From Tepidiforma sp. (GTDB taxonomy: Bacteria > Chloroflexota > Dehalococcoidia > Tepidiformales > Tepidiformaceae): a stretch of DNA of 64,000 bases. Positions 33,782 through 36,710 of this stretch are shown piece by piece (position 1 is the stretch's first letter; every line of letters begins with the position of its first letter). The stretch covers positions 227,407-291,406 of the forward strand of contig BPIE01000002.1 in NCBI GenBank assembly GCA_026003935.1, written 5' to 3'. The notes beneath the pieces are model-generated. The model was given only the letters and a program-made list of their open reading frames with translations, made no database searches and had not been told where the DNA came from. The position numbers and the translations under genes were made by a program.

Positions 33782-35038
33782 TCAGCCGACCAGGCGTTCG
33801 GCGCGGAACCGGGCGATTTCGGCGTCATCGAAACCGGCCTCGCGGAGGACTTCGTCGGTGTGCTCGCCGAGTGCCGGTGAGGCGCGCTGGATGCGGGTCG
33901 GGGTGGCGGACATCTGGACAACTGGGGCGGGCCCGCGCATGGGCCCGAGGAGGGTGTGGTCGTACTCCTCAATGAAGCCGTTGGCGGCGACCTGGGGGTC
34001 GTCGAAGAGTTCTTCGACGAAGCGGACGGGGCCGCAGGCGATGTCGAACTGGTCGAGGTAGGCGAGCCACTCGGCGTTGGTGCGCTGGAGGAACTTTTCC
34101 TCGCAGACGCGGACGAGCTCGGCGGCGACGTCGTGGAGGCGTGCGGGGTCGAAGCCGGGTTCGTAACGGGGGTCGGTAATGCCGAGGGCGTCGCGGAAGC
34201 GGGCGCGGGGGCCGGGGCCGAGGCAGCCGACGACGAGGTAGGAGTCGCGCGTCTTGTAGGGGCGGTAGTAGATGTTGCCGGAGAGCTCGGGGGTGAAGCG
34301 GCGGCGTTCGCGGATGATCTCCTCCATGGACGCGCCGCGGGTGCGTGCTTCGGCGAGGTGTTCGAGCTTCTGCTTGCGGATGGGTTCGTCGAGGGCGACG
34401 ACCTCGCGGGAGCCGGCCTGGAGTGCGAGGGCGGAGAGGAGGAGGCTGGAGTTGATGGCCTGGCCTTCGCCGGTCCGTTGGCGGTGGTAGAGGGCGGCGG
34501 TGATGGCCCAGGCGAGGGCGTAGCCGGTAACGACATCGGCCGGGGCGAAGGCGACGGGCATGGGGAGGCCGTTCTGGAGGTTGGGGTTGGAGGTACTGAG
34601 GCCGCTCATGGCCTGGGCGACGATGTCGTAGCCGCGCCGCATGGCATCGGGGCCGTGCTTTCCGAAGGCAGTATTTTCGGCGTAGATGATCGTCGGGTTG
34701 ACGCTGCGGGCGGATTCGTAGTCGATGCCGAGTGCCTCGGGAACGCCCGGGCGGTAGTTGGTGATGAGGACATCGGCGGAGGCGATGAGGCGGTCGCGGA
34801 TGGGCGCGGCGCGCGGGTCTTTGAAGTTGAGGGCGATGCCGCGTTTACCGCGATTTTGGACGAGGAAGTTCTTGCTTTCTTTGGGAATGACCTCGGCCTG
34901 GAGGCGCCAGGGTTCGCCTTCGAGGGGTTCAACTTTCACGACATCGGCTCCCATTTCGGAGAGGAGGGAGGCGGCGAGGGGACCGGCGATGATCTGGGTG
35001 CAATCGAGGACGCGGATGCCTTCGAGGGCGCCTGGCAT
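33782..35038 (-). CDS. CaiB/BaiF family (class III) CoA-transferase
   Basis: A 418-aa protein opening with LEGIRVLDCTQIIAGPLAASLLSEMGADVVKVEPLEGEPWR, a typical family III start, then FLVQNRGKRGIALNFKDPRA and the catalytic-Asp region (YAENTAFGKHGPDAMRRGYDIVAQAMSG is the family's GFG-like stretch). It transfers CoA between carboxylic acids; members work on carnitine, formyl-CoA, succinate/benzylsuccinate and bile acids. The genomic context (a broken secreted-protein gene and a structured RNA) gives no clue to substrate. Confidence 0.9.
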   Translation of the reverse strand: MPGALEGIRVLDCTQIIAGPLAASLLSEMGADVVKVEPLEGEPWRLQAEVIPKESKNFLVQNRGKRGIALNFKDPRAAPIRDRLIASADVLITNYRPGVPEALGIDYESARSVNPTIIYAENTAFGKHGPDAMRRGYDIVAQAMSGLSTSNPNLQNGLPMPVAFAPADVVTGYALAWAITAALYHRQRTGEGQAINSSLLLSALALQAGSREVVALDEPIRKQKLEHLAEARTRGASMEEIIRERRRFTPELSGNIYYRPYKTRDSYLVVGCLGPGPRARFRDALGITDPRYEPGFDPARLHDVAAELVRVCEEKFLQRTNAEWLAYLDQFDIACGPVRFVEELFDDPQVAANGFIEEYDHTLLGPMRGPAPVVQMSATPTRIQRASPALGEHTDEVLREAGFDDAEIARFRAERLVG

Positions 35039-35423
35039 AGATGCGCTCCATGGCTGGAATAGGTGGGGGCAGGATACAGGAGTTCGGGGGCGCGGGGCGG
35101 AGGTTGGTGGCCGAGGGGTTGGCGCCGGATACTGGTGGCGTGGAAGGCGAGGCGAGGCGCGTGGGGCTTTGCGCAGAGCTGCGCGTGGGCGCGGCGCGTG
35201 GTGAGCGGGCGCGGTTCGGTGTTTTGGCTGTGCGAGCGGTCGCGCACGGATGGGAGGTTCCGGAAGTATCCGCCGCTGCCGGTACTGGCGTGCTCGGGTT
35301 TCGAGCGGCTACGCCCGGGGGTCGAAGATGCAGGCGGTGCGCGAGAATCTGACGAGCTGCGTTAGGCCGTATTGCAGGAGATGTCTGGTCAGCGGGATGG
35401 CGGGTATGTTACGTTACGCCTCC
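35039..35423. other. Intergenic stretch between the CoA-transferase and the structured RNA
   Basis: About 385 bp with no gene I can support. The track ORFs at 34758-35204, 35041-35352 and 35063-35365 are Arg/Gly-rich and unlike any family. Near the right end TATGTTACGTTACG (35405-35418) might serve as the -10 of the RNA gene, but no convincing -35 was found. Confidence 0.4.
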
Positions 35424-35577
35424 GGCTGAAAGCGGGGGAGCTACCGGCGGGGTAGCCGTCGCGACAAGAGCCAGGGGCTCGATGCCATCTCCCATTGCAT
35501 CGAGCCCCCGCTTCCCGAAAGGGGAGTGTCCTTCCGGGCTTTTGCGCGTTCGGTTAGGTAGTTCCCTCCTTTCAGCC
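35424..35577 (+). ncRNA. Candidate structured RNA of unknown class
   Basis: Helices that can be read directly: closing stem GGCTGAAAG/CTTTCAGCC (35424-35432 with 35569-35577), then GGGAGCTACC/GGTAGTTCCC (35436-35445 with 35557-35566), then CGCG-A-CAAGAGCC/GGCTTTTG-CGCG (35460-35472 with 35537-35548), a 12-bp apical hairpin GGGGCTCGATGC/GCATCGAGCCCC (35474-35508) and CTTCCC-GAAA-GGGGAG (35511-35526), a GNRA tetraloop hairpin. Three helices contain G-U pairs that would be C-A mismatches on the other strand, and GAAA lies on the + strand, so the RNA is probably read left to right, convergent with ftsZ. GCTACC can alternatively pair with local GGTAGC (35451-35456), giving a possible switch. It is not recognisably tmRNA, RNase P, SRP or T-box; GGGGGAGCTACC...GGGGTAGC is only faintly like a c-di-AMP riboswitch. 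Confidence 0.65.
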
Positions 35578-35585
35578 CGTTGTCT

Positions 35586-36710
35586 TTAGCGGAATCGTGC
35601 GACGCGACCGAGCTGGTCGGCGTCGGTGGTGTTGAGGGAGCGGAGGTTGCGGCGGAGGAATGCTGGGAGTTCTGCGTCCTCCATGTTGCTCACACCGGGC
35701 AGATTGAAATCGCGGATGCGGCCGGAGCTCGTTTCGAGCGGGTCGCCGATGGTGGCGACGCGAGGCGTGAAGCCGGTCGCGATGACGGTGATGTGGACTT
35801 CGTCGCCGACGCGGGGGTCCACGACGGTGCCGAAGATGATGTTGGCGGAGGGGTCGACGACCTCGGCGATGACGCGGGCCGCGGCATCGAGCTCGCGGAG
35901 GCCGAGGCTGCCGCTGTGGGTGACGTTGAAGAGGACGCTGTGGGCGCCTTCGATGGACTGGTCGAGGATGGGGCTCTGGGTGGCCGCGCGCGCGGCTTCG
36001 ACGGCGCGGTTCTCGCCGCTGGCCTTGCCGACAGCGAGGAGGGCCGGGCCGGCTTCGCTCATCGTGGTGCGGACGTCGTTGAAGTCGAGGTTGATGGAGC
36101 CGTTCTGGCTGATGATGTTGGAGATGGACTGGATGGCCTGGCGGAGGACGTCGTCGGCGGTTTCGAAGGCTTCTTCGACGGTCGCGTTCGGGGGGCAGAT
36201 TTCGATGAGCCTGCCGTTGGGGATGGCGATGAGGGTATCGACTTTGTCGCGGAGGCGGGCGATGCCGTCTTCGGCCTGCTTCATGCGGCGGGAGCCTTCC
36301 CAGGGGAAGGGTTTGGTGACGACGCCGATGGTGAGGGCGCCGCATTCCTTGGCGATCTCAGCGACGACGGGTGCAGCGCCGGTGCCGGTACCGCCGCCCA
36401 TTCCTGCCGTGACAAAGACCATCTCGGTGCCGCGGAGGAGGTCGTAGATTTCGTCGCGGCTTTCGTCGGCTGCGCGTTCGCCGCGGGTTGGGTCGCCGCC
36501 GACGCCGAGGCCCTTGGTGAGTTTTTCGCCGATGCGGAGGCGGGTTGGGGCTTCGGAGCTGGCGAGCGCTTGGGCGTCGGTATTGCAGGCGATGAACTGG
36601 ACGCCGGGGATCTTGGCGCGAACCATCCGGTTGACGGCATTGCAGCCGCCGCCGCCAACACCGATGACTTTGATATCGGGCAGCAGGTCGAGGTCGTAAC
36701 GCGTGCTCAT
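35586..36710 (-). CDS. ftsZ: Cell division protein FtsZ
   Basis: A 374-aa tubulin-like GTPase: VIGVGGGGCNAVNRM, the tubulin signature GGGTGTGAAPVVAEIA, NLDFNDVRTTM and a C-terminal peptide (ELPAFLRRNLRSL) of the type that binds FtsA or SepF. It polymerises into the Z-ring. It is the last gene of the dcw cluster, 71 nt after ftsA, leaving room for its own regulation. The candidate RNA abuts its 3' end in the opposite orientation. Confidence 0.97.
   Translation of the reverse strand: MSTRYDLDLLPDIKVIGVGGGGCNAVNRMVRAKIPGVQFIACNTDAQALASSEAPTRLRIGEKLTKGLGVGGDPTRGERAADESRDEIYDLLRGTEMVFVTAGMGGGTGTGAAPVVAEIAKECGALTIGVVTKPFPWEGSRRMKQAEDGIARLRDKVDTLIAIPNGRLIEICPPNATVEEAFETADDVLRQAIQSISNIISQNGSINLDFNDVRTTMSEAGPALLAVGKASGENRAVEAARAATQSPILDQSIEGAHSVLFNVTHSGSLGLRELDAAARVIAEVVDPSANIIFGTVVDPRVGDEVHITVIATGFTPRVATIGDPLETSSGRIRDFNLPGVSNMEDAELPAFLRRNLRSLNTTDADQLGRVARFR

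Follow-up and report, generated by a model that had tools for sequence, protein, structure and literature searches.

Action at ribosome-binding sites through C-rich or anti-Shine-Dalgarno motifs is established for small RNAs such as NfeR1 (PMC10746234) and RsaE (PMC9266662). NfeR1, of the alpha-r14 or "cuckoo" RNAs of alphaproteobacteria, combines variable stems with an ultraconserved, unpaired, C-rich anti-Shine-Dalgarno motif, and each of its three hairpins carries CCUCCUCCC (PMC10746234); RsaE of Staphylococcus has a UCCC motif that was proposed to contact mRNAs (PMC9266662). RNA genes opposite the cell division gene ftsZ are also known, namely StfZ of Escherichia coli, an antisense RNA (PMC9628754), and Yfr28 of Prochlorococcus, an RNA of 72 nucleotides (nt) with conserved synteny that is encoded between ftsQ and ftsZ and overlaps the ftsZ 5' untranslated region (UTR) (PMC7368042). 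Here we describe a locus of about 155 nt beside ftsZ in Tepidiforma sp. (phylum Chloroflexota), located on the + strand at positions 35422 to 35577 of a 64,000-nt stretch of contig BPIE01000002.1 (the window) and identified as a small RNA gene by its fold (z −8.9), its homologs and its covariation. We propose, at somewhat less than even confidence, that it encodes a small non-coding RNA that may act in trans by base pairing.

The predicted RNA is closed end to end by a helix (P1), and its near-invariant unpaired pieces are a GGCGGGG bulge and a UCUCCC hairpin loop (P3). It shares with NfeR1 the variable stems and the ultraconserved unpaired C-rich motif, but has one UCUCCC loop and a P1-paired CCUCCUUUC strand in place of three motif-bearing hairpins, occurs in another phylum and has no Rfam match. 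The UCCC motif is shared with RsaE, whereas the end-to-end closed fold, the G-rich bulge and the lack of an Rfam match set the RNA apart from it. Like those of StfZ and Yfr28, its gene is found at ftsZ on the other strand; unlike StfZ, it lies at the ftsZ 3' end, is about 155 nt long and persists in copies away from ftsZ, and Yfr28 is shorter and has another position relative to ftsZ.

The initial annotation had described a strongly folded RNA at 35424 to 35577 that fits no known class, and both statements held. The + strand folds with −98.7 kcal/mol, compared to −62.0 ± 4.1 kcal/mol for 200 dinucleotide shuffles (z −8.89; 0 of 200 as good), and the opposite strand with −83.6 kcal/mol (z −6.4); the closing helix, inner helix, P3 and GAAA hairpin of that description are all present in the minimum-energy fold. 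Searches against Rfam at gathering cut-offs and at E values up to 10 gave no family match, with a single chance-level hit (E = 1.4). The RNA family is absent from Rfam and new, but of a known kind.

The 5' strand of P1, GGCTGAAAGcGGGGGAGCTACC (35424 to 35445), has 97% of its alignment cells paired and seven pairs changed on both sides. Within the 3' strand, GGTAGTTCCCTCCTTTCAGCC (35557 to 35577), the sequence CCTCCTTTC is nearly invariant; the anti-Shine-Dalgarno tail of 16S rRNA has a matching sequence. The GGCGGGG bulge (35446 to 35452) at the junction of P1 and the inner helix, P2, is invariant in full copies and most often predicted to be unpaired. The 5' strand of P2 (TAGCCG, 35453 to 35458) has 88% of cells paired, and its 3' strand (CGGTTA, 35551 to 35556) was assigned from the pairing and covariation analysis. 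P3 (35474 to 35508) has a covarying 12-bp stem and the loop CATCTCCCATT (35486 to 35496), of which the UCUCCC core is nearly invariant. The predicted probability that this loop is unpaired is 0.51 to 0.99 and reaches at least 0.8 in all full copies of the family but one, so that a conserved C-rich sequence is displayed in a predicted open loop on a covarying stem, as expected of an anti-Shine-Dalgarno-type RNA. P4 (35509 to 35528) has a GAAA loop in the window and is variable in relatives. At the position of P5 (GTCC..GGGC, 35528 to 35539), most relatives have a GUCC-GGAC hairpin, which is absent from the minimum-energy fold of the window.

BLASTN detected the locus in 26 of 61 relatives, every one in the same family as Tepidiforma. 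A covariance model (R1) matched 36 of the 38 family genomes, 35 of them with a full copy, and full copies span Tepidiforma and about 17 other genera. One genome (G017; one contig, 96% complete) is reduced to a core beside ftsZ. In the two genomes without an R1 match (G023 and G032), ftsZ was not found either, suggesting that the contig is probably missing from those assemblies. In a consensus of P1, P2, P3 and P5 from 25 homologs, 93.8% of cells are paired and 16 pairs have changed on both sides; its covariation is 0.224, compared to 0.141 for shuffled alignments and no more than 0.086 for slid ones. The compensatory changes proposed as a check on the initial annotation are therefore present. 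A shorter core, consisting of P3 and the CCTCCTTTC strand, adjoins ftsZ convergently in four other families of the same class (f17, f21, f23 and f50), and across families the covariation of P3 is 0.551 (0.187 shuffled). A core model (R2) yielded no convincing match beyond the class in a 400-genome sample of the phylum; the out-of-class matches were taken as chance, and the fetched flanks of none contained ftsZ. The Tepidiforma genome itself has one copy of the locus and no second copy of P3, the partial matches lacking the UCUCCC loop.

A switch between two exclusive pairings had also been suggested, in which GCTACC pairs either with a local GGTAGC or with a distant partner. The local pairing is possible in the window sequence, but only the distant one covaries: for the distant P1/P2 pairing, covariation is 0.376 versus 0.233 shuffled (0 of 500 shuffles as high), and for the local hairpin it is at shuffle level (0.306 versus 0.294; 104 of 500 as high). 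The local hairpin is tolerated, with 89% of cells able to pair, largely through an invariant GGGGU and wobbles, and a conserved switch is not supported.

The strand had been assigned from G-U pairs that would be mismatched on the other strand. Among the 25 homologs, G-U on the + strand outnumbers A-C by 33:3 in P1 and 20:2 in P2 (joint 53:5), so the argument holds for these helices; for P3 it is reversed (5:13 in the family and 9:21 across families). Counts for P4 were not used, as the result depended too much on the chosen pairing. The placement on the + strand, convergent with ftsZ, is supported further by an invariant promoter element. In an ungapped alignment on the P1 5' end, TGnTAnnnT occupies positions −14 to −6 in 19 of 19 lineage representatives, with the T, G, T, A and T invariant; in the window it reads TGTTACGTT (35407 to 35415, + strand). 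A −35-like TGGTCA (35386 to 35391, + strand) lies 18 nt upstream of the −10, and the T at −35 and the G at −33 are each conserved in 89% of the same representatives. Judged by its sequence, TGnTAnnnT is a putative extended −10 promoter, from which transcription would begin at the outer end of P1, giving a predicted 5' end at 35422 to 35424. The 3' end is predicted at or just past 35577 and is less certain, since a T-tract follows it in most Tepidiforma and a few others and is absent from most genera. The + promoter is an extended −10 one and the T-tract of the window is weak, which is why a simple promoter and terminator scan called neither the promoter nor a − terminator here.

In the mechanism we favor, the conserved extended −10 promoter would start transcription where P1 has its outer end. 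In the folded RNA, the closed P1 would be followed by the GGCGGGG bulge, by P2 and by several hairpins, of which P3 displays the UCUCCC loop. The exposed C-rich loop may then pair in trans with Shine-Dalgarno regions of target mRNAs, and the CCUCCUUUC strand perhaps does so as well if P1 opens. In most relatives, the convergent units would share one stretch of DNA, with P3 on the − strand acting as terminator of the ftsZ operon. Several observations weigh against this mechanism. The CCUCCUUUC strand is predicted to be paired within P1 in most full copies. The 8-nt loop complement TGGGAGAT, searched for 2 to 8 nt before ATG in four genera, marked no genuine start and no recurring target; the sites seen were spurious and inside other reading frames, and the sole orthologous pair is internal to its gene. 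The GGCGGGG bulge could also contact the loop, its GGGG pairing with UCCC, and such docking would give a compact fold without a free seed; as both are invariant, covariation cannot tell docking from a seed. Finally, the bias of P3 to the − strand (A-C 13 versus G-U 5 in the family, 21 versus 9 across families) indicates that part of its conservation comes from a terminator role.

The RNA gene lies between a CoA-transferase III gene (33782 to 35038) and ftsZ (35586 to 36710; Pfam PF00091 and PF12327), both on the − strand; ftsZ is convergent with it, and 8 nt separate the RNA 3' end from the ftsZ stop codon. The closest named relative of this ftsZ, at 92% identity, comes from a Tepidiforma metagenome-assembled genome. 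On the − strand, P3 is found shortly downstream of that stop as a GC-rich hairpin followed by a U-tract: in 33 copies, the T fraction of the 10 nt 3' of P3 is 0.46, compared to a background of 0.15, although the window has only a weak tract there (3 of 10). In most copies the − strand gives the better fold of the core, and P5 read on that strand carries various GNRA loops (GGAA, GUGA, GCGA, GUAA and GAAA) and otherwise mostly GNNA. By these sequence features, P3 on the − strand is an intrinsic-terminator-like 3' end of the ftsZ operon in most relatives, and this terminator-like version extends to other families of the class.

Two further features were seen at the ftsZ end. In most genera of the family (loci L014-L033 and other f1 loci), ftsZ ends with GAA AGG AGG TAG (ERR stop), and the tandem AGG codons are also a perfect Shine-Dalgarno sequence; in Tepidiforma and other families, the same motif occurs just past the ftsZ stop. 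Family f17 has an additional hairpin of ∼66 nt, GTAGCCCAGG...CCGGGTCGGGCTAC, on the + strand just upstream of the core (L230, about 2600-2680, minus; same place in L173, L174, L175 and L176). It is followed by a T-run, preceded by a promoter-like TACAAT/TAGAAT hexamer in those copies that were read for one, and without an Rfam match; from its sequence it resembles a further small RNA gene that converges on ftsZ.

Copies away from ftsZ separate the two strands' roles. G019 has a full RNA beside an amidase gene, with promoter, P1, bulge and loop kept, and its ftsZ 3' end carries a different hairpin without the UCUCCC loop. G016 has a full copy on a contig stretch where ftsZ was not found, and in G021 a core copy lies between the ftsZ end and a full copy ∼700 bp from it. 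All three full copies keep the promoter, P1, GGCGGGG and UCUCCC. Such copies, like the + promoter and the terminator-like role of P3, were not part of the initial annotation. In G006 and G011, a full copy and a core copy are arranged in tandem. Of the full copies, those of G011, G019 and G021 have lost the T-tract on the − strand, that of G016 has a weak one and that of G006 keeps it, and the ftsZ-proximal cores of G006, G011 and G021 keep the T-tract and lack P1. In genomes with a duplicated locus, the two roles tend to fall on separate copies. The copies with all features away from ftsZ, together with the distribution of the T-tract, argue for a + RNA gene in its own right and for the ftsZ terminator as a second function of this DNA. 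A broader proposal, which we make more cautiously than that of a trans-acting RNA, is that each strand of one DNA stretch specifies a structured RNA under selection, the + strand a small RNA driven by a promoter and the − strand the terminator-bearing ftsZ 3' end, and that duplication has repeatedly split these roles.

The same copies bear on the alternative that survives best, a cis-antisense regulator, in which the + RNA would pair with the ftsZ mRNA 3' end from the P3 loops and affect its decay or termination, with P1 capping the antisense strand until displaced by the ftsZ mRNA. From the stop codon to P3, over ∼110 nt, the 3' end of the ftsZ mRNA is complementary to the RNA, and most genomes show complementarity to this end. 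The RNA is adjacent to and convergent with ftsZ in nearly all genomes, and the 5' arm of P1 copies the ftsZ 3' sequence GGCTGAAAGGAGGTAGCT. A duplex of the ftsZ mRNA with the 3' arm is predicted to be 11 to 19 kcal/mol stronger than P1, and antisense RNAs at ftsZ have precedents in StfZ (PMC9628754) and Yfr28 (PMC7368042). Perfect complementarity, however, follows from the overlap alone, and G019, G016 and G021 keep all features in a full RNA that does not overlap ftsZ, suggesting that the overlap is not needed. We consider this explanation unlikely.

Slightly less likely still is a structural or protein-bound RNA, for instance a 6S-like decoy of RNA polymerase: a rod closed end to end, present in single copy with its own promoter and held in a ribonucleoprotein. 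The invariant GGCGGGG bulge and the end-to-end closure would suit it, as would the similar length and paired ends of 6S RNA and the result that no genome of the family searched has an Rfam 6S RNA over the cut-off. The 6S model (RF00013) does not match the locus, however. 6S RNA, an RNA polymerase ligand that serves as template for product RNAs, has a two-sided central bubble, whereas the minimum-energy folds of the window and several relatives show a one-sided GGCGGGG bulge with little or nothing opposite in place of a large central internal loop mimicking an open promoter; some relatives fold differently around the bulge. The core copies, moreover, keep the C-rich loop without the bulge. Among the 37 relatives searched, the sole clear 6S RNA belongs to G043, a genome from outside the family, and does not lie at this locus (C227:21772-21948, L116); a weak sub-threshold hit in G011 is also elsewhere. 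Two other candidate identities were rejected: a signal recognition particle (SRP) RNA, since the SRP RNA gene of this genome lies elsewhere (G000, C1:131614-131712), and a CsrA-sequestering RNA with GGA loops on the − strand, since CsrA was not found in the 10 family genomes searched, although two other families of the class do have it (L257 and L258; G039 and G038).

That the ftsZ 3' UTR and terminator alone matter, with incidental features on the + strand, seems improbable to us. The T-tract after P3, the G-U bias of P3 and the GNRA and GNNA loops of P5 all point to the − strand, and core copies in other families end soon after the ftsZ stop. P1 and P2, however, lie partly beyond the terminator, covary and favor the + strand by 53:5, and neither the invariant + promoter nor the full copies away from ftsZ would be expected. 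Least credible is an inverted repeat acting as DNA, such as a protein-binding site or the end of a mobile element: the arms are long, but the repeat is single copy in the genome, G-U-specific substitutions and compensatory changes occur across genera, and a promoter is placed at the arm.

No literature on this RNA was found in the limited collection of papers available, and a limited search found none on small RNAs of the phylum, where such RNAs seem little studied; the locus adds to it a well-supported RNA family. The RNA sits at a key cell division gene, and the copies away from ftsZ let its role be separated from that of the ftsZ terminator. Since named Tepidiforma species exist, its expression and ends should be directly testable. 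If one stretch of DNA does serve two selected RNAs on opposite strands, the locus would be a natural case for studying the origin and later separation of overlapping RNA genes, and its small RNA would be tied to cell division.
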